DNA of 64,000 nucleotides from Desulfofarcimen acetoxidans DSM 771 (GTDB taxonomy: Bacteria > Bacillota > Desulfotomaculia > Desulfotomaculales > Desulfofarciminaceae). This document shows, piece by piece, positions 838-62,767 of the stretch. The notes below the pieces were generated by a model. It searched no databases. It saw only the letters and a program-made list of their open reading frames with translations, and was not told the DNA's origin. Positions within the stretch are counted from its first letter, which is position 1, and each line of letters opens with the position of its first letter. A program made the translations under genes and the position numbers. Where the stretch lies: positions 2,604,001-2,668,000 of the forward strand of contig NC_013216.1 in assembly GCF_000024205.1 (NCBI RefSeq), read 5' to 3'.

Positions 838-1035
838 TTAATTTTCGCCTCCCACCGGTTCAGCCATAAACACATCATGCCGGGCATACCATCTGTCACC
901 GTTCACATTTTTAAACCACATAAATTCGCCTTTTATCCGGTATTCTGTAGCTATATCCGGCATTCCAATTGATTCTGCAATCTCGCGCTCTAGGTTGTTT
1001 AACACCTTAATTGCTTCGTTTAAATCTAACTCCAA
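838..1035 (-). CDS. Small conserved-looking protein of unknown function (65 aa)
   Basis: Starts at TTG 1035 after AAGGG and overlaps the end of the upstream 47-aa ORF by 10 bases, so translation is probably coupled. The N-terminal half is helical and acidic (ELDLNEAIKVLNNLE). The C-terminal half carries an aromatic stretch (GEFMWFKNVNGDRWYARHD). No family is recognised. It is the last gene before hammerhead 1, so ribozyme cleavage would trim its 3' UTR. Confidence 0.55.
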   Translation of the reverse strand: MELDLNEAIKVLNNLEREIAESIGMPDIATEYRIKGEFMWFKNVNGDRWYARHDVFMAEPVGGEN

Positions 1036-1169
1036 CCCTTGCCGGTTAGTTGGTCTAAGATACTAGCTATCAGTTGATCTTTAACCCAACAATCAAAGCA
1101 TGAACGAGTAAGTTGGAATGCGGCCTTGGCAGCCGGTAAAACCTCTAAAGTTAAATTAACGTGTTTCAT
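1026..1169 (-). CDS. Small protein of unknown function (47 aa)
   Basis: ATG at 1167-1169 with AGAGG upstream and stop TAG at 1026-1028. Begins MKHVNLTLEVLPAAKAA and contains a Cys pair (SCFDCW). It lies between hammerhead 2 and the 65-aa gene it overlaps. After cleavage by hammerhead 2 its mRNA would begin with the GCAGGAAAC segment about 45 bases upstream of the start. Confidence 0.5.
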   Translation of the reverse strand: MKHVNLTLEVLPAAKAAFQLTRSCFDCWVKDQLIASILDQLTGKGWS

Positions 1170-2101: not shown

Positions 2102-2338
2102 CTACCTTTCGTTAATGGCCTTCGGTATCGGTTGGGGTAGTTCTTCGGACTCGGCCAGGAGTTCACTGGCGGGAATACCGAAGAAGTTTTCGAGGCGCCT
2201 TTGTAATTTCCATGAAGGGTTGCACTGGCAGTTGATAATATAACTAACCATTTGTCTTGATACGTCAACTGCTTTACCCACTTCGGTATATGTTAAATTT
2301 CGTTGTTGTATTTCGGACAATAAGACTAGGCGTTTCAT
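2102..2338 (-). CDS. XRE/Cro-like regulator, switch 1 minus partner (78 aa)
   Basis: HTH in the first 60 residues: TYTEVGKAVDVSRQMVSYII followed by NPSWKLQRRLENFFGIPASELL, a typical small Cro-like protein whose C-terminal FFxIPASELL phrase recurs in the minus partner of switch 2. It is divergent from the repressor at 2419, with the palindromic operators at 2351-2403 between them. Probably the opposing regulator of a bistable switch. Confidence 0.8.
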   Translation of the reverse strand: MKRLVLLSEIQQRNLTYTEVGKAVDVSRQMVSYIINCQCNPSWKLQRRLENFFGIPASELLAESEELPQPIPKAINER

Positions 2339-2350
2339 TTTACACCTCTT

Positions 2351-2403
2351 TCCGTAAGTAGTAATTACTATATTTTATAGTATACCGTAAGTAATGCTTA
2401 CGG
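2351..2403. promoter_or_regulatory. Operator region of switch 1
   Basis: Two palindromes in the 80-bp divergent intergenic region: TAGTAATTACTA (2359-2370) and CCGTAAG-TAATG-CTTACGG (2385-2403). CCGTAAGTA also precedes the first, so both sites share a half. The second lies directly upstream of the Shine-Dalgarno of the 2419 gene. Confidence 0.7.
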
Positions 2404-2418
2404 TCAATAGGAGAAGTT

Positions 2419-2802
2419 ATGTCTTTAAAAAATATTTTTGCTAAAAGACTATCCTTGCTTATTAAAGAAAATAAAGCATCTAAACAAGCAGTGGCTAATG
2501 CCATTAATATAAGCCGTCCGGCTATAAGTCAATTTGCCAGCGGAGAAAATCTTCCATCCGCTGAAAAACTTGTCGCCCTCGCCGACTTCTTCGGTGTGTC
2601 TATTGACTACCTGGTTGGTCGGTCAGATGATCCCCGAATACCCAATGCCCTTAGTAACACTATTTGTGATTTCTTTGCTGACGATTCGGCACCAGAAATG
2701 CCACCGGAAGTTCGCCAAATAGTTAATAAGGTTATTAAGCTACCGCATGAGAAGATAAAAATCCTTAATGATGTTTTAGATACATGGGTAGAATCTGATT
2801 AA
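2419..2802 (+). CDS. CI-like XRE repressor, switch 1 (127 aa)
   Basis: N-terminal HTH: KQAVANAINISRPAISQFAS with SIDYLVGRSD at the end of the HTH domain. The C-terminal 55 residues (from about DDSAPEMPPEVRQIVNK to the end) are nearly identical to those of the repressor at 3116, also at the nucleotide level, while the HTH parts differ. AGGAG precedes the ATG. Likely represses its own divergent promoter. Confidence 0.85.
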   Translation: MSLKNIFAKRLSLLIKENKASKQAVANAINISRPAISQFASGENLPSAEKLVALADFFGVSIDYLVGRSDDPRIPNALSNTICDFFADDSAPEMPPEVRQIVNKVIKLPHEKIKILNDVLDTWVESD

Positions 2803-2823
2803 CGTCCCATAAAGGGACTGAAA

Positions 2824-3018
2824 CTATTCAGTTACCTTCAGCAATTCACTTGCTGGAAGTTTGAAAAATTGTTCCAGACGCTTTTCTACTTTTCGAGAAG
2901 GAAGCTTTTGTCCAGACTCAACGTAATAGTACATGCGTCTTTTGATACCTATGGCTTCTGTTACCTGTTCAACAGAAAAACCGCTTTCAATTCGCTTTTG
3001 TTTTAGAACTGTACTCAT
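2824..3018 (-). CDS. XRE/Cro-like regulator, switch 2 minus partner (64 aa)
   Basis: ATG at 3018 follows AGGAGTG, preferred over an upstream in-frame start at 3036. HTH: GFSVEQVTEAIGIKRRMYYY. The tail EKRLEQFFKLPASELLKV resembles that of the 2102 protein. Divergent from the repressor at 3116. Confidence 0.8.
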   Translation of the reverse strand: MSTVLKQKRIESGFSVEQVTEAIGIKRRMYYYVESGQKLPSRKVEKRLEQFFKLPASELLKVTE

Positions 3019-3030
3019 AAATTCACTCCT

Positions 3031-3080
3031 GTGCAATTAAAATGCACCTCTAACATTATATTAGTGCAATATTATTGCAC
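3031..3080. promoter_or_regulatory. Operator region of switch 2
   Basis: Two sites with GTGCA half-sites: GTGCAATTAAAATGCAC (3031-3047) and GTGCAAT-ATT-ATTGCAC (3064-3080). Each is an inverted repeat 17 bp long. The sequence is unrelated to the operators of switches 1 and 3. Confidence 0.75.
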
Positions 3081-3115
3081 TGTCAAGTATTTATATTAAA
3101 TTTAGGAGAAATAAT

Positions 3116-3493
3116 ATGGCCACCTTTGGCGAAAGATTATACCAATTAAGAAAATCTAAAAACTTAAAGGCTGAAGAATTGGCTGAATTCGTTGGACTAA
3201 AGAGAAGAATTATTTTTCTTTATGAAAAAAATGAATCCAAGCCAAGTTATGACACCTTAATATTATTTGCTGACTTTTTTAATGTTTCACTTGATTATCT
3301 AGTTGGTCGGTCGGATAATCCCCAGCGTATACTTAGTGCCCTTAGCATCACCCTAGATGAATTCTTTTCTGATGATTCGGCTCCAGAAATGCTACCGGAA
3401 GTTCGCCAAATAGTTAATAAGGTTATTAAGCTACCGCATGAGAAAATAAAAATCCTCAATGATGTTCTGGATACCTGGGTAGATTCTGATTAA
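3116..3493 (+). CDS. CI-like XRE repressor, switch 2 (125 aa)
   Basis: AGGAG precedes ATG 3116. HTH: NLKAEELAEFVGLKRRIIFL, followed by SLDYLVGRSDNP. The C-terminal half is nearly the same as in the 2419 protein (VRQIVNKVIKLPHEKIKILN), showing tandem duplication with exchange of the DNA-binding half. Probably autoregulated through 3031-3080. Confidence 0.85.
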   Translation: MATFGERLYQLRKSKNLKAEELAEFVGLKRRIIFLYEKNESKPSYDTLILFADFFNVSLDYLVGRSDNPQRILSALSITLDEFFSDDSAPEMLPEVRQIVNKVIKLPHEKIKILNDVLDTWVDSD

Positions 3494-3499
3494 CAATAC

Positions 3500-3615
3500 G
3501 CCGCAATGCAGCCACCCTACTCTGCTACCCTAGGGCCTACCGTCAATTTGCTTTCTTTCCCAGCTTTAACGGTACGCCTTAAGGCAGTCGTTGCACTAAA
3601 TCCTATCGTCATTTT
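3500..3615 (-). repeat. Diverged structured repeat, copy 2
   Basis: Second copy of the element at 1729-1822, here directly after the switch 2 repressor. On the minus strand TACCGT and ACGGTA form a 6-bp stem with a loop longer than in copy 1. The conserved blocks surround this stem. Confidence 0.5.
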
Positions 3616-3647
3616 TTGCACCTCTTCAAATTTTTCCGTTGTTGTTA

Positions 3648-3869
3648 TTATGCATTACGCTTACTGCTATAAAATATTTCACCAATGTCGATTTCCAATA
3701 TTTTTGCTATTTTCTCAACTCTTTCGGCAGAAAGTTTACGTCTTCCACGCTCAATATCACTATATCCACCAGGAGACATACCTAGTTTTTTTGCGACATA
3801 GCATGAAGTAATTCCTTTTGCCTTTCTTATTTTACGAATCCTATTACCATATACAACACTTCGGTTCAT
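3648..3869 (-). CDS. XRE regulator, switch 3 minus partner (73 aa)
   Basis: HTH: GITSCYVAKKLGMSPGGYSD, then IERGRRKLSAERVEKIAKIL, the standard XRE layout. Divergent from the regulator at 4017. Ends in a short tail (FYSSKRNA) with no extra domain. Confidence 0.82.
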   Translation of the reverse strand: MNRSVVYGNRIRKIRKAKGITSCYVAKKLGMSPGGYSDIERGRRKLSAERVEKIAKILEIDIGEIFYSSKRNA

Positions 3870-3918
3870 TTATAAAGTTTTTCCCCTTTCAATAAAATTC
3901 GCTTAAACAAATTATATA

Positions 3919-3961
3919 TAAGCGAAATGCTTATGTCAAGCAAATATAAGCATTTCGCTTA
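3919..3961. promoter_or_regulatory. Operator region of switch 3
   Basis: TAAGCGAAATGCTTA (3919-3933) and TAAGCATTTCGCTTA (3947-3961) are two copies of the same 15-bp site in opposite orientation. A further TTCGCTTA half-site lies at about 3898. Confidence 0.75.
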
Positions 3962-4016
3962 ATTAAATTTCGCTATTTGTAAACTTATGATATATTTATA
4001 TTTAGGTGGGGATTAC

Positions 4017-4415
4017 GTGAAGATTAGTATATTTGCTCAAAGATTAAAAAAAGAGCGTGAAAGCAAAGGATGGACACAGGAATATTTAGCAGATTTGTTA
4101 AAAATAAAAATTGGTACTTTGTCTGGTTATGAACGCAGTTATAGACAACCTGATCTTGATATGGTTATTAAAATTGCCGAACATTTAGACTGCTCTGTTG
4201 ACTATCTCCTTGGCCGAACCAATCAGCGCTCGCATTTTTATGAAGACCGGGAACCCACAAAAGCAGAGCTTGAAGAAATCCTTAAAAACAGCAATGTTAT
4301 GTTCGACGGAGCGCCCCTGGATGATATTGATAAAGAGGATTTGATTGATTTTGTGAGAATTGCTATGCGTACTTTAAAGGTTAAAAGACAACAAGAAAAC
4401 AAGCAGGACAAATAA
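4017..4415 (+). CDS. XRE regulator, switch 3 plus partner (132 aa)
   Basis: GTG 4017 follows AGGTGGGGATTAC and is preferred over an ATG at 3987. HTH: GWTQEYLADLLKIKIGTLSG, then DLDMVIKIAEHLDCSVDYLL. The C-terminal half (about 60 residues, acidic) is different from the switch 1 and 2 repressors. It directly precedes the helicase gene, from which a strong terminator separates it. Confidence 0.85.
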   Translation: MKISIFAQRLKKERESKGWTQEYLADLLKIKIGTLSGYERSYRQPDLDMVIKIAEHLDCSVDYLLGRTNQRSHFYEDREPTKAELEEILKNSNVMFDGAPLDDIDKEDLIDFVRIAMRTLKVKRQQENKQDK

Positions 4416-4536: not shown

Positions 4537-7281
4537 ATGATATTTAATATTTTGAAATACTGGAGAAATAGCCTTGCAGATAGTTCTCGACTTCACAAAA
4601 AGATCGACACTTCTGCATTGGAGATAAGTCATGATGTTTTGAACTCTGGAGTTATTGATCATGACACTACAGTAAAAATAGTAAAGCTTTTTAAAGAGGC
4701 TAACAAAACTTCAAAGGATTTAGACAATACTGATAATACAGCTATTCCAGTTTTAATTTGTCCTTATCGTTTGGCTTTAAATTATTGTGGTTGTCATTAC
4801 GAAAAACGTGATGGTAATCTTGATAAGGAAATTACTCCGTTATGGATTCCGGCTAAACTTTCTCAACACGGAAAATTACAGCCAATTGAAGGAAGTCTGC
4901 CATGGATCGCACGAGGCTTACTGGACCCAACTACCAAGCAAGGTAAAACTATAGGCTCTATTGAAGATATTGAGCATTATTTGTCTTGCACAAGAACAGA
5001 CGACTTATGGCAAGATTGGCATAAATTTTCTAATTATTGTTTTAATATGCTCAAGTCACTGCCATATGGAGATTTATCATTTCCGGAATATACTATACTT
5101 ACCAATGCCTTTATTATGCCGGATACTGATATCCGTGGAGCAGAACTTAATAATATAAAACTACTTGATTACTTAATAGAAAATAATAAAACTACTCCTA
5201 CACTGACAAGATATGCTTCTTTATCGGATATGTCGATTGGACCTATATTAAATGATCAACAGGAATTCAAGATAGCTTCTAAACATATGGGACAAATGAG
5301 CAGTGAGTTTCCTTTGGCCCCCTCACAACGAGAAGCACTACATCATTTTTTAACTCTTAAAAACGGTGAGATTCTAGCTGTCAACGGACCTCCAGGCACC
5401 GGAAAAACTACACTTTTACATAGCATAATTGCAAATATGTGGGTAGAAGCAGCAGTTTTTCAAACCAGTCCACCTGTTATTGTTGCTGTATCGGCTAATA
5501 ACCAGGCGGTAACTAATATAATTGATAGTTTTGGTAAAGTTATTAAACCCAAAGATATTTTATCTGAAAGATGGCTTCCCGAAATTAATAGTTATGGTCT
5601 GTACTGCCCGTCTTCAAGTGCAGCTACACGTAAAAATACAACTAAATTTCAAATTGCACTATCAAATGATAACAATTTTCCTGCCACATCTGGTTTGCCA
5701 GGTAAGTTAGAGGATTCTAAATACTTTACGTTAGCAGAGACATATTTTTTGGATAAATGTACTAAGTATTTTGGTATCTCAATTAATTCCATTGTTGAAG
5801 CACAATCTATAATTCACAAAAACCTCTTACAATGTTTAGAACCCCTCTCTAAACTTATAAATGAACATAATGGTAAGATAAAAACAAAGCAGAATAATCT
5901 ACCTTTCTGGTTGCGGCTACTTTACTCTTTGCCACCGTCAGTTTGTAAATTTATTGAGCAGTTATTAAGACTTTTTAATATCTCGGATAAGCTTGCAAAA
6001 ACATCTGACATACCAGAACAGAGTGATGTCGTTTTTAATAAGAATAATTTCTTTTCAAAGCTTGACCTTGAAATTAGACATAAAGCATTTTTGCTTGCCA
6101 CCCATTACTGGGAAGCAAGATGGCTACAAGAAATACAGGAAATGAATTTTTTAAGCAACCAGAAGAAAAAACTACCTTTAAGGGATCGTGTTGAAAGAAA
6201 ATGGCGTCGTTACTCAATGCTGACACCTTGTATTGTTTCTACCCTTTATATGTTGCCAAGCATTCTAACATGTTGGAAAAGAATTGACGATGGTTTTGAA
6301 ATGGAACCGCTTTTAGAATTTGCGGATTTATTAATCGTCGATGAATCTGGTCAAGTAACAGTGGAACTTGCTGCAGCTTCCTTTGCATTAACCAAAAAGG
6401 CGCTGCTTGTTGGTGATATCTTACAAATTGAACCAGTCTGGAATATAAACAAAGCCATTGACGAGGGTAATTTATTAAAGCATAAGATTATTTCAAACCG
6501 TAGCCAATTTGCTGAAATAGCTTCAAAAGGTATTACCGCCTCCGAGGGTTGTGCAATGCTTATTGCTCAAAGAGCAAGTAAGTATCAAAAATTAGATTCA
6601 TCGGGAAATAAATACCCTGAACGCGGCATGTTTCTTTCGGAACATCGTCGTTGTCTTGACAGTATAATTGATTATTGTAATAAATTAGCTTACAACGGAA
6701 GACTAAAGCCAATGCGCGGCAACGAAATACTTAACGGTGGATTTCCACCTATAGGGTATCTTCATATATCAGGCCAATCAACAAAAGTTGGTACAAGCCG
6801 TAAGAATGATATGGAAGCTGAATTTATTTTAGATTGGGTTTTAACAAATAAAGAATACCTTGAATATGTTTATAAAAACGATATGGCTAATAAACCAATA
6901 AAAGATATCATCGCAATTGTTACACCTTTTGGGGCGCAAAAGGACTTATTTCATAGATTACTTTTATTAGATAAATATTCATCTTTACAAGATATTACCA
7001 TTGGTACTGTTCACGCACTACAAGGTGCTGAAAGGGATGTAGTTATTTTTTCACCGGTATACTCTCATCAGGACGGAAATCCGGACGGTTTTTTCTTCAA
7101 TCAGGGCGTTCAAATGCTCAATGTAGCCGTTTCACGGGCCAAAAACAGTTTTCTTGTTTTTGGCAATATGGATATTTTTAATCCCAAATCTAACAAGCCC
7201 TCCGGTTTATTAGCTAAATTTTTGTTTACTAATGAATCAAACAATCTGTTAATCTGGGAGCAAATTTCCAAGGTAAGTTAG
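4537..7281 (+). CDS. UPF1-like superfamily 1 helicase (914 aa)
   Basis: ATG 4537 follows GAGGTGG. Helicase motifs: Walker A GPPGTGKTTLL at about residues 284-294, Walker B LLIVDESGQV at about 604 (DESGQ corresponds to the DEAGQ of UPF1/DNA2 helicases), motif IV-V IGTVHALQGAERDVVIF near 825 and motif VI MLNVAVSRAKN near 863. About 280 residues precede motif I and about 300 separate motifs I and II, so large accessory domains are present. The likely activity is ATP-driven nucleic acid unwinding or translocation. It lies between XRE regulators and an ImmA gene in accessory DNA, which suggests a defence or mobile-element function, but this is inference. Confidence 0.82.
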   Translation: MIFNILKYWRNSLADSSRLHKKIDTSALEISHDVLNSGVIDHDTTVKIVKLFKEANKTSKDLDNTDNTAIPVLICPYRLALNYCGCHYEKRDGNLDKEITPLWIPAKLSQHGKLQPIEGSLPWIARGLLDPTTKQGKTIGSIEDIEHYLSCTRTDDLWQDWHKFSNYCFNMLKSLPYGDLSFPEYTILTNAFIMPDTDIRGAELNNIKLLDYLIENNKTTPTLTRYASLSDMSIGPILNDQQEFKIASKHMGQMSSEFPLAPSQREALHHFLTLKNGEILAVNGPPGTGKTTLLHSIIANMWVEAAVFQTSPPVIVAVSANNQAVTNIIDSFGKVIKPKDILSERWLPEINSYGLYCPSSSAATRKNTTKFQIALSNDNNFPATSGLPGKLEDSKYFTLAETYFLDKCTKYFGISINSIVEAQSIIHKNLLQCLEPLSKLINEHNGKIKTKQNNLPFWLRLLYSLPPSVCKFIEQLLRLFNISDKLAKTSDIPEQSDVVFNKNNFFSKLDLEIRHKAFLLATHYWEARWLQEIQEMNFLSNQKKKLPLRDRVERKWRRYSMLTPCIVSTLYMLPSILTCWKRIDDGFEMEPLLEFADLLIVDESGQVTVELAAASFALTKKALLVGDILQIEPVWNINKAIDEGNLLKHKIISNRSQFAEIASKGITASEGCAMLIAQRASKYQKLDSSGNKYPERGMFLSEHRRCLDSIIDYCNKLAYNGRLKPMRGNEILNGGFPPIGYLHISGQSTKVGTSRKNDMEAEFILDWVLTNKEYLEYVYKNDMANKPIKDIIAIVTPFGAQKDLFHRLLLLDKYSSLQDITIGTVHALQGAERDVVIFSPVYSHQDGNPDGFFFNQGVQMLNVAVSRAKNSFLVFGNMDIFNPKSNKPSGLLAKFLFTNESNNLLIWEQISKVS

Positions 7282-7311: not shown

Positions 7312-7735
7312 TTGCAACATATACACCGAGTAATAAAGGAACTAATTATTAAATACCCAAACAAAAGTCCATTCGAAATTGCAGAATTGTTGGGCTGCAC
7401 GGTTATAAGGTACCCCTTTCATAATCTTAATGGTTTGATTATCACAATATTTGGGGTTACCTTTATCGGTGTAAATCTCAATCTTCCGCTGGATATTCAA
7501 GACATTGTTGTCCTTCACGAAATCGGACATTTTTTGTTACATACAAATATCAGTTACTTTGCCGTAATGGAGCACCGGGTACAATGAACATGAAAACGAG
7601 GCCACCTTGTTTGCTATAGAGTTTATAGCCAGGTCTGACCAACCGGATGCTGGTAAGCATGCTTACAACTATGCCAAAAGAAAAGGTATACCCACTGATT
7701 TGATTGAATTGTGGTCTAAATGCGTGGGAAAGTAA
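7312..7735 (+). pseudogene. ImmA/IrrE-type metallopeptidase, frameshifted
   Basis: Starts at TTG 7312 after GGAG. The first frame contains the zinc site LHEIGHFLLH (HExxH) and then stops at 7585-7587. The remaining family sequence continues in the next frame from about 7580: YNEHENEATLFAIEF, the conserved second part (ExEAxxFA) with the third metal ligand, ending at 7735. One frameshift near 7580 therefore separates the halves. Family proteins cleave XRE-type repressors, fitting the nearby regulators. It may be inactive, a sequencing error or programmed. Confidence 0.8.
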
Positions 7736-10886: not shown

Positions 10887-12911
10887 CTATCTTTTAAAAG
10901 TTATCTGAAATTCTGCACCAGATTCATCAGGTTTTAGCTGTACCAACTGAATCTCTCCACCATTATCTTTTATCAATTCGTCAACTATAGCTAACCCCAT
11001 ACCAAAACCATCAGTCGTTGTATAAAAAGGTATAAACACATGTGCAGCATCTCTTGGTGGTATACCAATTCCATTATCTCTAAAAAATATATTAATACGT
11101 GAATCATTATTTATAACCCGAATATGAATAAACTTATCATTCGTATTACACTTATTTAAAGCTTTTTTTGAGTTCGAAATAAGATTTTCAAGTATTACTT
11201 TAAAATCACTTGGGTCAAAATAAATGATCAGAGATTCATCACCTTCAACAATACATTCAATACCATTTTCACGAAACTCAGGCATATAATGATTAATAAC
11301 CCTTTTAATGCTTTTAATTATATTAATATTTATTTTTTCTCTCTTTTTTAAAATTTTTTCCCTTACACTCACAAGAAAATCGCCTATTTCGCTAGCTCTT
11401 TCCTTTATGAAATTATGACATTTATTGATTATATATCTTGCATCAGGATTAATATCAATTGTTTTTAAATCATCCTCTGTATTTGAAATCGCTGTTGAAA
11501 TATTTTGTGCTCGTATAAAAGCTTGGTGAATTATTTTTTGTAGTAAAGTTTCTTTACTAGCGGCTCTTTTGTAAATTTCAATAACCTGTAACTGATTACG
11601 TATAATTTTATCTTGCTCAATGGTTTTATCATGTAATTGATTAGATAAATCAACCAATTCATTTGCTTCTGACGGTGCCACAGAAAATAGCTTTTTTGCT
11701 ATTTCCTTAACTTCTTTTGTAGTCTTAATTATTTCTTCTCGATTACTTCTAGCCTCACTTTTAATATCTTTATTTTTTTTAAAATAAAACTCACTTTCAA
11801 GCTTAGTTAGTGCTTCTTTTTTTATAAACTGCTTAAGTTCATCGTAGTCTTTGTTTTCTTCTAAACCTTGCCTGTTAGTAGCATCTATTAATCCCTTATT
11901 ATGTTCTCTATAAATTTGAATATAACCTATTACTTCGCGGGAACCTAAATTTCTAAAATGACCTTGTGTCTTACGCCTATCTAAACCTAGCCAATCATTA
12001 AGATGCTCACCATATGGATATATTTGAAAATTATCACGATAAATCCTTATATTACCAAAATTCACAACATCTATAGAGAATTTGTGTTTAAAAGAAATCT
12101 TATCTCCAGTCGTAAATGAGTAGATTAATACATTCACTGGTCCAAAATTATATGTATTATTATAACTACCCTTATCTAACTCAGCTCCATTTCTATATAT
12201 CCTATAATTAATAATATCAGTATCATTTACAGGTACCTCAACATTAATCCAAATAGAACTTATATCACTTATACTATAAGGTATTAGTTGCTTATTCTTT
12301 ACCCCATATTCTTGACAATTAAGATATATTGCAAAATCGTCTGTATTCCCAACAGGTGATAATAAACCACTTAATTTTTTTTCCACCCTAACAATATCAT
12401 CTATTGTCCATGCATCTCTTAGACCACTAATTATCAATGTAAGCCCTTTTAGTTTAGGTTTATCTATGTAACTATAGTCAATTTGTATATCATCAAGTAA
12501 ATAATTAGTATTTTCAAACAAATTCCAATCAAAAATCATCCTTATAGCTTTTTCCGATTCTTCAACACAAGCTATCATTTCTAATTTATTCCCAAGTCGA
12601 TCAGCAGAAAACCTTCCAATACCTTTTTCTCCATTTAGCACACGGCCTTTTGAAGTAAATAATTTACCTTGCTTGCTATCAGTACCTATAACCATCCACT
12701 TATTTTCAATCTCATTCAAAGACATTCCATCGCCATCATCATCAATCGTCAATGTGTCTTCTAATATATTAAAAGAGACATTAACCTTATCCGCATCAGC
12801 ATCATATGAATTTTTCACCAATTCAAATAGAGCAGAGTGTTTATTTGTAACTAGACGTCTACCAACAAGATCTTTAACTTTAGAAGAAGCAGAAAAAGAA
12901 AAACTTGGCAT
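10887..12911 (-). CDS. Double GHKL ATPase: HSP90/MORC-like N-domain plus histidine-kinase-like C-domain (674 aa)
   Basis: ATG 12911 follows AGGGAGA and is preferred over an ATG at 12959 that overlaps the methyltransferase. N-terminal Bergerat fold: ALFELVKNSYDADA (N box), DDDGDGMS (G1), NGEKGIGRFS (G2). A middle coiled-coil region spans about 370-500. The C-terminal HATPase has ENLISNSKKAL (N box), FRDNGIGIPP (G1) and TTDGFGMGLAI (G2). A His in KIIHQAFIRAQ at the start of the second helical region could be the phosphorylation site. Predicted to sense a trigger and phosphorylate the REC partner; the two ATPase domains in one chain are unusual. Confidence 0.75.
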   Translation of the reverse strand: MPSFSFSASSKVKDLVGRRLVTNKHSALFELVKNSYDADADKVNVSFNILEDTLTIDDDGDGMSLNEIENKWMVIGTDSKQGKLFTSKGRVLNGEKGIGRFSADRLGNKLEMIACVEESEKAIRMIFDWNLFENTNYLLDDIQIDYSYIDKPKLKGLTLIISGLRDAWTIDDIVRVEKKLSGLLSPVGNTDDFAIYLNCQEYGVKNKQLIPYSISDISSIWINVEVPVNDTDIINYRIYRNGAELDKGSYNNTYNFGPVNVLIYSFTTGDKISFKHKFSIDVVNFGNIRIYRDNFQIYPYGEHLNDWLGLDRRKTQGHFRNLGSREVIGYIQIYREHNKGLIDATNRQGLEENKDYDELKQFIKKEALTKLESEFYFKKNKDIKSEARSNREEIIKTTKEVKEIAKKLFSVAPSEANELVDLSNQLHDKTIEQDKIIRNQLQVIEIYKRAASKETLLQKIIHQAFIRAQNISTAISNTEDDLKTIDINPDARYIINKCHNFIKERASEIGDFLVSVREKILKKREKININIIKSIKRVINHYMPEFRENGIECIVEGDESLIIYFDPSDFKVILENLISNSKKALNKCNTNDKFIHIRVINNDSRINIFFRDNGIGIPPRDAAHVFIPFYTTTDGFGMGLAIVDELIKDNGGEIQLVQLKPDESGAEFQITFKR

Positions 12912-12924
12912 CAAGATCGTCTCC

Positions 12925-14235
12925 CTAAATAGAATTTGATGTTTGTCTATCAAATTCACAATAATTACAATTTATTTGTTCAATATATTTAATAAGTACT
13001 TGTCCTAGTATTTCAGCAAATAAAGGTGGTACAGCGTTTGCAACCTGTGTATATCTTGGGCATTCTATTTTTCTTCTTTTTCCACCCGTAGTGTAATTGT
13101 TTTTGAATTCAAACCAATCTGGAAAGCTTTGCAGACGTGCATATTCACGAACTGTTAAAACTCTTGGCTCATTATAGTGTAATAAATCATCGGGTAAAGA
13201 TGTTAATGTGGGTGAAGGTTCTAATTCATCCGCTGGAACAATACAATGTTTCTTAGTATCATATCTCATTCTTTCTTCGGAGTTAATCTGAACTCCTTTT
13301 TTACATTTACTTAAGATTAGGGAGAATCTCTGAATAATTTCTTGGGTATGATTTACCAATCTATGACTATCAGGTACTCTATTTCCAACGTCTATATCCT
13401 CACGCATTAATTTTTGAAAAGCCGATTCGGCTTGTCCTTTTAAACCATGATAAAACCCTTTAGAATCCTGACTAGGAACTTTTCCAAACCTTATACTTTC
13501 CAAATCTGAAATAGCATCTTTTATTGAAATTTTCTCCAATGTTAACCCCTTTTCCTTAAGAAAATTATCACGTAGAGATCTTAATTTCTCAAAGGGATTA
13601 TCTATCACATTTCCAAAAGATTTTATATCAAACCCGATTAAAATAAAACGTGTTCTGGATTGTGGGATTCCATACTCACTAAAATTAACTAATGCAGTAA
13701 ATACATTATATCCTAATCTTTTAAGTGAATTCTCTATTTTTTGGGAGTACGGTAAAGGTTTTTTACCTGATTTTTTTCTTTTATTCAGTTCATTCTTTTT
13801 CTCTTTACCAATTGGTACCGTAATACCCTCAACGTTTTCAAAAAAAATTATTTTGGGACTAAGGCATTTAACCATACCAATATATTTTTTAAATAATTCA
13901 TTTCTCTCATCATCACTACTACGTTTACCTGCAAATGAATAACCTTGGCATGGTGGTCCACCTGCTATAAGATCAATTTGACCAGAAATTGTTTTTAGCT
14001 GCCTCCAGAATCTAACCCTAAACTTGCATATATCATGAGGTTCTTTCGACAACCATTTGGGCCAATTATAATGAACCTTATTTCCATCAATAAGGTTGTA
14101 TTTTAAAGTTTCAAAAGCCATAGGACTTTTTTCTATTGCAAAAAAACCTTGCCAACCAGCATTCATTAAGCCTAAAGAGATTCCTCCACAGCCAGCAAAA
14201 AGGTCAATATAGACAGGCCTTTTTAATTCCACATT
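12925..14235 (-). CDS. DNA (cytosine-5) methyltransferase (436 aa)
   Basis: Proposed start GTG 14235 after AAGGGGAA; a longer frame reaches 14319. Motif I YIDLFAGCGGISLGL, motif IV GGPPCQGYSFAGKR with catalytic Cys, motif VI FFENVEGI, motif VIII QSRTRFILIG, motif X VANAVPP. All core m5C motifs are intact. The target specificity is unknown. No restriction endonuclease is adjacent; instead a GHKL ATPase, REC protein and protease follow within 30 bases of each other, implying that methylation marks self DNA for a non-nuclease response. Confidence 0.9.
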   Translation of the reverse strand, partial: NVELKRPVYIDLFAGCGGISLGLMNAGWQGFFAIEKSPMAFETLKYNLIDGNKVHYNWPKWLSKEPHDICKFRVRFWRQLKTISGQIDLIAGGPPCQGYSFAGKRSSDDERNELFKKYIGMVKCLSPKIIFFENVEGITVPIGKEKKNELNKRKKSGKKPLPYSQKIENSLKRLGYNVFTALVNFSEYGIPQSRTRFILIGFDIKSFGNVIDNPFEKLRSLRDNFLKEKGLTLEKISIKDAISDLESIRFGKVPSQDSKGFYHGLKGQAESAFQKLMREDIDVGNRVPDSHRLVNHTQEIIQRFSLILSKCKKGVQINSEERMRYDTKKHCIVPADELEPSPTLTSLPDDLLHYNEPRVLTVREYARLQSFPDWFEFKNNYTTGGKRRKIECPRYTQVANAVPPLFAEILGQVLIKYIEQINCNYCEFDRQTSNSI

Positions 14236-14389
14236 GTTTTCCCCTTCCACCAAAACCCTTACAAAAAGTATAGCAAATAAGAGATTTTTACACCAGACAA
14301 TAAATGTTACTAAATTCATTTGTAGGTGGATTTAGCGTTACTATATGAACAGAGCATTGGCGCCAGTATAGCATAATCAAAAATTAAAT

Positions 14390-47518: not shown

Positions 47519-47576
47519 GGTTCTCCGATAATTATGTCGGTTTCACCCAGGCACCACCTGGGACTCATCAGGCAAG
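47519..47576 (-). ncRNA. Degenerate hammerhead ribozyme (copy 3)
   Basis: Keeps CTTGC-CTGATGA, stem II (CCCAGG/CCTGGG, compensatory against CCCGG/CCGGG) and GAAA, and stem III CCGA/TCGG. After stem III the expected TC-GCAGG is replaced by AGAACC, so the cleavage site and stem I 3' strand are lost. It probably cannot self-cleave. Confidence 0.65.
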
Positions 47577-47630
47577 TTTATATTTTTGTCAGTCGGTAGC
47601 GGCTCCCTGTCTCTTTGTCTTCAAATTCCA
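47577..47630 (-). pseudogene. 3' end of an XRE gene, copy of 1274-1320
   Basis: About 50 bp nearly identical to the end of the 1274 regulator (encoding DKETGSRYRLTKI), ending in the degenerate hammerhead. The rest of the gene is absent. Confidence 0.75.
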
Positions 47631-47935
47631 ATAAAAAACAAACCATTAGTTTTATTGATTAATAGTTGTATTTCCATGCCTGGTATAGGATTTATAACTT
47701 TCAACGATGCGGCACTTTTAAACATATCAACGTTATTATTGTTGTTAACAAAGAAGTTATGATGTTCTCTTTAAATGTTGTTTTTTTAGTAGGTAATAAT
47801 GTTTTCCACCCCAAAAACCTATTAATTAATTGATCAATCTGATAAAAATGAAATATTATCAAGGAACAAAAGATAAAAAGTAGAACAATATTAATTATAC
47901 TAAAGAAAAATTTTCTTTTAGGAGTACAATTTAAT

Positions 47936-61629: not shown

Positions 61630-62157
61630 ATGAGGAAATTGCATTTAAACAATCCACAAAATTTAACCATTGAGGATTTGAATAAGATAAAAAGAGAAAC
61701 ACCATATAAACTAAGATGCAGAGTTCAAGCTGTCATTCTTGTCATGAAAGGGAGACAAGCAAAGCAGATTGCCGAATATCTTGATATAAGTGAACAAACC
61801 ATAAGAAAATACGTTGCTTACTTTAATGAAGGTGGAGTTGAAAAACTGCTTCATGTATCAAAAAAACCGGGAAGACCGCCAAGGCTAACCAATGAACAAA
61901 AAGAAGAGGTCAAAGAGGTACTGAAAAAATCACCATCAGAGGTTGGTTTTAGTACCCATACTACTTGGAATTGTAAAACCCTCGCTGCTTACATTCATGA
62001 TACATACGGCATTAAATATACATCAGATGGTGTTTGGCGCATGCTTCTTAAGATGGATTTTCGTTATAATCGTCCCACTTATGTATTAGCCAAAGCTGAT
62101 CCGGAAAAGCAAAAAGCTTTTCAAGATGAGCTGGAAGAGTTAAAAAAATCTCACTGA
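61630..62157 (+). CDS. IS630 transposase first ORF (HTH domain, 175 aa)
   Basis: ATG 61630 after GGGGAGGGG. HTH: QAKQIAEYLDISEQTIRKYV, RPPRLTNEQKEEVKEVL linker, second HTH (CKTLAAYIHDTYGIKYTSDG). Ends in KKSH after a run of seven A residues; the catalytic ORF is in the +1 frame. Confidence 0.88.
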   Translation: MRKLHLNNPQNLTIEDLNKIKRETPYKLRCRVQAVILVMKGRQAKQIAEYLDISEQTIRKYVAYFNEGGVEKLLHVSKKPGRPPRLTNEQKEEVKEVLKKSPSEVGFSTHTTWNCKTLAAYIHDTYGIKYTSDGVWRMLLKMDFRYNRPTYVLAKADPEKQKAFQDELEELKKSH

Positions 62158-62176
62158 ATGTGAAATACTCCTATAT

Positions 62177-62680
62177 GTGGATGCATCTCACATTAGGGAC
62201 TATCAAGGTTTACAACGAGCATGGTTCCCAAAAGGTGAGCAAAAAAAGATTAAGACCTATGGACACCATGCAAAAGTTACATTATACGGTGCTTTAAACT
62301 ACTATACGGGTAAAGTTTTTTGTGTAAATTATGACAAAATCAATGCAGAAAAATTCAAAGATTTTCTTAAAAAATTGGTATCACATTTTTTAAAAGATGA
62401 CATTTCTAAAATTTACATTGTTCTTGATAATGCAAGAGTTCATCATGCAAAATTACTTAAAGACTTTTTAGACGAGCATAAGGATCATCTGTTTTTGAAA
62501 TTTCTTCCACCCTACTCACCCAATCTGAATTGCATAGAAGAGTTATGGAAATGGTTAAAAAATACAGCTATTTATAATCGCTTTCATAAAAATGCTTCAG
62601 AAATTCAAAAATCTGTTGACTCGTTTTTAGAGGAAATCAAATGCTGTTCGGAAGATGTGAAAAAGAGACTTTGCGTTTAA
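62177..62680 (+). CDS. IS630 transposase catalytic ORF (167 aa)
   Basis: GTG 62177 opens an ORF with all DDE acids (ASH region, IVLDNARVHH, NCIEELWKWL). Upstream the frame is open to 62144, overlapping the first ORF by 14 bases. Probably made as a fusion by +1 frameshift or slippage at AAAAAAA. Confidence 0.88.
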   Translation: MDASHIRDYQGLQRAWFPKGEQKKIKTYGHHAKVTLYGALNYYTGKVFCVNYDKINAEKFKDFLKKLVSHFLKDDISKIYIVLDNARVHHAKLLKDFLDEHKDHLFLKFLPPYSPNLNCIEELWKWLKNTAIYNRFHKNASEIQKSVDSFLEEIKCCSEDVKKRLCV

Positions 62681-62767
62681 TTTATAACGATATTTATTAT
62701 TTCGGTTCTATATAGATCCAGATAATCATCCCCCCTAAAAAGAACAAAAACGGCTTCAAAAATACAA

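Follow-up and report, generated by a model that had tools for sequence, protein, structure and literature searches.

Within the 64,000 nucleotides of Desulfofarcimen acetoxidans DSM 771 analyzed here (the window; G000:C1:2604001-2668000, from a single-contig genome of 4.55 Mb), positions 2102-4415 hold three complete divergent pairs of small HTH_3 genes (helix-turn-helix, or HTH, regulators of the XRE, Cro/CI-like type). They are arranged end to end and in the same orientation, with the cro-like gene to the left (- strand) and the repressor gene to the right (+ strand). We propose, with a probability of roughly 60%, that this is a stack of three self-contained, mutually orthogonal CI/Cro-type switches of exchangeable specificity, in which pairs 1 and 2 would serve as accessory immunity modules. 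The original prediction, drawn from the letters of this stretch, had described three divergent XRE pairs in a row, and HTH_3 pairs are indeed present at 2102-2338/2419-2802, 2824-3018/3116-3493, and 3648-3869/4017-4415. In every pair, both genes encode HTH_3-type regulators (cro1 scores 22.5 against the Pfam HTH_3 cut-off of 23). Type II toxin-antitoxin pairs were also considered and rejected, given that both partners are of the HTH_3 type and a better match to a toxin family is absent.

Every pair has its own operators and its own predicted promoter. Pair 1 consists of cro-like regulator 1 (78 amino acids [aa], with an HTH; 2102..2338, -), which has an orthologous partner in loci L058-L060, and repressor 1 (127 aa; 2419..2802, +). 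Operator 1a (GTAAGTAGTAATTAC, 2354-2368) lies between the -10 box and the start of cro1 and is conserved in four genomes, while operator 1b (GTAAGTAATGCTTAC, 2387-2401) is contained in the 17-bp spacer (2385-2401) of the predicted cro1 promoter, TTGACC-GTAAGCATTACTTACGG-TATACT (2379..2407, -). Pair 2 comprises cro-like regulator 2 (64 aa; 2824..3018, -) and repressor 2 (125 aa; 3116..3493, +), separated by operator 2a (GTGCAATTAAAATGCAC, 3031-3047), conserved in six genomes, and operator 2b (GTGCAATATTATTGCAC, 3064-3080), which fills exactly the 17-bp spacer of the cro2 promoter, TTGACA-GTGCAATAATATTGCAC-TAATAT (3058..3086, -). The innermost switch, pair 3, is formed by cro-like regulator 3 (73 aa; 3648..3869, -) and repressor 3 (132 aa, GTG start; 4017..4415, +), with operator 3a (TAAGCGAAATGCTTA, 3919-3933) inside the 17-bp spacer of the cro3 promoter, TTGACA-TAAGCATTTCGCTTATA-TATAAT (3911..3939, -), and operator 3b (TAAGCATTTCGCTTA, 3947-3961) beyond it. 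Thus, an operator palindrome occupies the spacer of a near-consensus promoter read toward cro in 3/3 pairs. This design is general: a promoter toward cro (TTG-N16/18-TA) was found in 106 of 118 pairs, against 5.8 expected from mononucleotide shuffling, and one toward the repressor in only 15 of the 118. A strong sigma-A promoter would drive each cro-like gene and, as the operator sits in the 17-bp spacer, it would be expected to be shut off by bound repressor or Cro.

Operator patterns were searched without protein information across 130 genomes, with the reversed pattern as a control, which gave 0 matches in all three paired-operator searches. Paired pattern 1 matched only three pairs of the HTH1 family (HTH1 and HTH2 being the DNA-binding parts of repressors 1 and 2); in its strict form it misses the window's own pair, whose first palindrome has one mismatch. 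Paired pattern 2 recovered only pair 2 and its relative in genome G016, and paired pattern 3 recovered pair 3 together with three unforeseen divergent XRE pairs, the repressors of which share 38-52% identity with repressor 3. The separate pair of inverted repeats predicted for each intergenic region was located, and these repeats go far beyond what chance would give. Both palindromes are kept in four genomes for the HTH1 family and in six for the HTH2 family. Among these, only the window copies carry the tail described below, so the operators go with the HTH family irrespective of the tail. One operator class common to all regulators, the outcome that had been named as speaking against HTH exchange, is ruled out because these operator-only searches match distinct HTH families, and this computational check leaves HTH exchange unrefuted. 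The three predicted operator codes are distinct and the switches, as judged from sequence, mutually orthogonal. Searched by operator patterns, the host genome contained two matches to operator 2, both inside pair 2, and elsewhere a few single sites for operators 1 and 3, at about chance level, so that a genome-wide regulon of the pairs was rejected. At two loci (L036 and L039), an HTH2-family repressor with both operators has no divergent cro-like gene upstream, forming a lone repressor-plus-operator unit; L038 also carries an HTH2-family repressor with both operators, and the locus starts too close to judge an upstream cro. At L059, an IscB-like gene (5015-6058, assigned by eye) adjoins a lone HTH1-type pair.

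We compared the HTH similarity of own partners with that of shuffled partners in 114 distinct pairs. The profile columns that co-vary are mainly 24, 25, 26, 28, 29, and 35, corresponding to the recognition helix and its end (z 6.5-12), with much weaker covariation at other columns. In a held-out test, where columns were picked in one half of the data and scored in the other, z was 12-17. With columns chosen on the same data, within-class shuffling gave a z of 19.8 and the own partner outscored stack neighbors in 62/67 modules (Wilcoxon p=1e-11). Partner matching was seen in all three window pairs, weakly for pair 1. The cro-like protein and the repressor of one pair probably read the same operator.

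Along the repressor strand, three classes can be told apart by eye: class B carries a PEVRQ...VLDTW or PDIRQ... tail, class A has none, and class C, to which repressor 3 belongs, has a longer one. Repressors 1 and 2 share a tail of 169 nt (2635..2803 and 3326..3494, both +). At the DNA level its two copies are 87% identical up to the stop codon, where the match ends, and about 95% identical over the last ~120 nt in an alignment read by eye. Their HTHs have other affinities. Within the order, HTH1 has relatives in three further genomes (L007-L009, with L058-L060 as the enlarged loci; 79-81% identity). Relatives of HTH2 occur in Sporomusa, Propionispora, and two uncultured Bacillota (73-77% identity), as well as in G016. 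Elsewhere, both belong to tail-less repressors of about 70-79 aa that end just after DYLVGRSDDP, and the tail, in turn, occurs on other HTHs (L003/L004, L012, L015, L020, L024, and L029). An alignment of tailed repressors resolved repressors 1 and 2 into a complete class-A HTH, different in each and extending to about residue 72 in repressor 1, followed by the same class-B 3' part, which still retains RICxALGITLxEFFAD, the final HTH helix of that class. The phylogenies of the two halves disagree, so that this comparison, too, leaves HTH exchange standing: HTH1 groups with L058-L060 (support 100/100) and HTH2 with L036-L039 and L047 (99/98), while the tails of repressors 1 and 2 are sisters (100/98). 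Constraining HTH1 and HTH2 as sisters costs 73 log-likelihood units (approximately unbiased [AU] test, p=0.0005). HTH1 is under purifying selection (ratio of nonsynonymous to synonymous substitutions, dN/dS, about 0.1); for HTH2, dN is 0.14-0.17 and dS is very high or saturated where the alignment is in frame. In an AlphaFold model of repressor 1, the HTH is confident (predicted local distance difference test about 88-95) and the helical tail less certain (about 55-82).

Outside the window, both HTHs occur on repressors that lack the tail and have the same operators. On these alignments and trees, repressors 1 and 2 are therefore chimeras that combine two independent tail-less HTH lineages with one recently shared class-B tail. 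A plain tandem duplication followed by fast HTH divergence would explain the common tails, but it is highly improbable, as the tree test rejects a sister relation of the HTHs (p-AU 0.0005) and tail-less genes elsewhere carry relatives of each at 73-84% identity. Of the nearly identical C-terminal halves and unrelated DNA-binding halves noted originally, the first are borne out by the tail, whereas "unrelated" has to be read as separate lineages, both with HTH_3 folds. Likewise, the idea of duplicates that had exchanged their HTHs keeps the exchange, which the conflicting trees support, and loses the diverged duplicates, since a class-B tail was fused onto two HTH lineages that are tail-less elsewhere.

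To place the stack among its relatives, we fetched the neighborhoods of related repressors, cellular and viral, obtaining 156 divergent pairs; as the loci were collected by similarity, stack counts are not a census. Two or more pairs were present at 19 other cellular loci, the largest stack being that of G051 with six pairs and a final repressor (L219 and L045; range 2-6), and two to four pairs, in one orientation, at about ten of 80 proviral loci. The window's stack is thus a member of a class that recurs in Bacillota, in genomes and proviruses alike. Stacks from several families keep, by eye, the constant class order B, A, C, often followed by an M78-like protease, and one and the same pair can be found in different stacks with different neighbors. 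Identity profiles revealed middles replaced between conserved outer ends that are 92-100% identical. G042 A5 matches G051 A1 at 92-100% identity in its two outer parts and at about 45% between them; the middle of G042 A5 (~380 bp) is 68-88% identical to that of G011 A6, which is unrelated outside it. G060 A4 combines the outer sides of G023 A2 with a middle 95-100% identical to that of G077 A4, and G051 B2 versus B5 provides a third case. Wherever two modules matched at 85% identity or more in both ends, the identity of their middles fell into one of two ranges, 96-100% and 60-67%, with none between (background 55, standard deviation 8). The operators and the HTHs of both cro and the repressor lie within the exchanged middle, so they stay matched when it is replaced. 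In the relatives the whole divergent block (a specificity cassette), judged from these profiles, moves as a unit by what would be a double crossover in the conserved outer gene ends. Comparison of the arrays in related elements, suggested earlier as a check, makes exchange visible, and the unit of exchange in them is larger than the HTH alone that had been proposed. Stacks of one genus (L045-L049) have, by eye, a common insert of creatininase-, GntR-, HicB-, and HicA-like genes before the last repressor.

As to function, we favor a division of labor in which pair 3 would be the lead switch, adjoining a defense-type helicase and an M78 protease, and pairs 1 and 2 would be accessory modules whose repressors silence incoming elements with the same operators. 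The stop codons of repressor 1 and cro2 are 21 bp apart, which leaves no room for a gene downstream of cro2 (repressor 2 and cro3 are separated by 154 bp). With no such gene and no other genomic site for operator 2, pair 2 lacks a cis target and is left with action in trans, and its most likely use would be superinfection immunity, acting on incoming elements. Candidate trans targets of operators 1 and 3 exist in viral sequences. On viral contig L256, operator 1 is flanked by an HTH1-family repressor and, divergent to it, an operon that includes a small gene and an antirepressor-like gene (by eye). Operator 3 is present at the switch of several proviruses, together with a helix of the GTLSGYERNYRDPD type. 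Of the viral hits for operator patterns 1 and 3, 37/54 have no adjoining XRE gene, so these patterns alone are no proof in so large a collection. Several points weigh against this reading. Paired operator 2 was found in none of the viral contigs; class-A pairs are also solitary in other genomes (L058-L060) and thus not always accessory; pair 1 is the outermost, and cro1 might still read into the decayed leftward genes at 838-1525; and no donor of a whole cassette was found for the window pairs, for which the direct evidence is the exchange between HTH and tail.

The best-surviving alternative, which we nevertheless consider unlikely, is that successive insertions at one hot spot left behind regulatory modules with no function as a set. 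The left flank, with its decayed genes (the remnants at 934-1169), IS630 copies, and repeats, would fit such accretion, as would the missing cis target of pair 2. However, each of the three pairs is intact and retains conserved operators and promoters, purifying selection acts on HTH1, the class order is constant across stacks of several families, and cassettes are replaced rather than decayed. Slightly less probable is that exchange simply allows elements whose regulators are otherwise similar to share a cell, in which case orthogonality and not immunity would be what is gained. Escape from cross-talk of this kind agrees with operators that differ among stack members and with the exchange directly visible in relatives, but it accounts for the differences between cassettes and not for the retention of several complete switches, some of them targetless. 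We regard as improbable a layered decision or sensor circuit over the downstream helicase and protease, with one signal per switch. Pair 3 does adjoin the two genes and all pairs point in the same direction, but the pairs have no operator in common, no common target was found in the genome, and other stacks adjoin other genes. The decision circuit of the original prediction is unsupported for the same reason, as the switches do not share operators.

The genes next to pair 3 are those of a superfamily 1 helicase resembling MkoC (914 aa; 4537..7281, +), downstream of repressor 3, and of a short M78 (ImmA/IrrE/CapP-like) metallopeptidase (7312..7587, +). The helicase matches the profile of MkoC (type II Mokosh defense) with an E value of 5.6e-289, the best stretch ending at profile position 971 of 1136, and no family of phospholipase D, the C-terminal domain of that system, was among its best 25 Pfam matches; it is possibly a Mokosh variant or part of a truncated system. 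The M78 product matches capP weakly (E=0.0003). To the right of the stack, a GHKL/HATPase protein and a C-5 cytosine methylase are encoded side by side (10887-14319, -), possibly as a restriction or defense module. Given that it also has a coupling protein, T2SSE/T2SSF-like genes, ParA, a topoisomerase, and an antirestriction protein, the region looks like a conjugative or integrative element. Two IS630-type copies with a frame-split transposase (1-662 and 62054-62715, 99.7% identical) bracket about 61 kb including the stack and the conjugative-type region, and a repeat of ~105 nt occurs at 662-765, 1178-1282, and 47525-47633 (76-94% identical). Left of pair 1, 934-1169 (-) contains two-frame remnants of a gene whose intact counterpart at L004 (1058-1339) is situated downstream of cro in a related single switch, which suggests that an early operon to the left of pair 1 has decayed. 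The sequence after repressor 2 (3490-3609) recurs with 66% identity at 1714-1817, left of cro1, possibly as the mark of a lost further pair.

The individual parts have known counterparts. The lambdoid immunity region (cI-operator-cro) likewise has a divergent repressor and Cro with common operators, and it is exchanged as a unit between phages (imm434/immlambda type), altering immunity. However, the window stacks several complete units with different operators and conserved outer gene ends, and, unlike lambda CI, repressors 1 to 3 had no peptidase S24 domain among their Pfam matches. Some phages have two immunity regions, such as N15 and PY54 with immB (PMC4488713) plus immA and P22 with immC plus immI. 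These resemble the stack in carrying more than one repressor system per element, but their regions are separate and of different kinds, whereas the CI/Cro pairs here are alike and in tandem. ImmR/ImmA of ICEBs1 shares an XRE repressor with a nearby M78 protease in a mobile region; in the window, the 914-aa helicase stands between repressor 3 and the M78 gene, and the number of switches is three and not one. CapH/CapP and DdrO/PprI also combine an HTH repressor and an M78 protease next to a defense-type gene, but the protease match is weak here and stacked accessory pairs are foreign to those systems. Among the hits in named reference phages, three were inspected (Moorella phage MCACPph1, Flavonifractor phage Castelnaud, and Lacticaseibacillus phage R3.3), and a stack of like pairs is absent from their annotation. 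The open-access full texts searched yielded reports of domain shuffling and immunity-region mosaics and none of stacked pairs. Thus, CI/Cro switches and immunity-region exchange are already known, while the stacked, exchangeable arrangement is new within the searchable literature.

The immunity region of a temperate phage normally provides the element with a single switch. Stacks in which two to six switches with different operators undergo cassette replacement would amount to a natural library of matched repressor/Cro/operator sets and would offer a possible repressor-based defense against competing elements. They are also a data set from which the XRE recognition code could be read, because both proteins of a pair and the operators co-vary. 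As the operator lies between two HTHs that face one another, the evolutionary rule suggested is that a single double crossover in the outer ends swaps both HTHs and the operator, never leaving a mismatched switch. More broadly, and at somewhat less than even odds, Bacillota mobile elements may keep and reshuffle a heritable immunity repertoire made of complete Cro/CI switches, some of them targetless, whose cassettes are recombined and which would silence matching newcomers.
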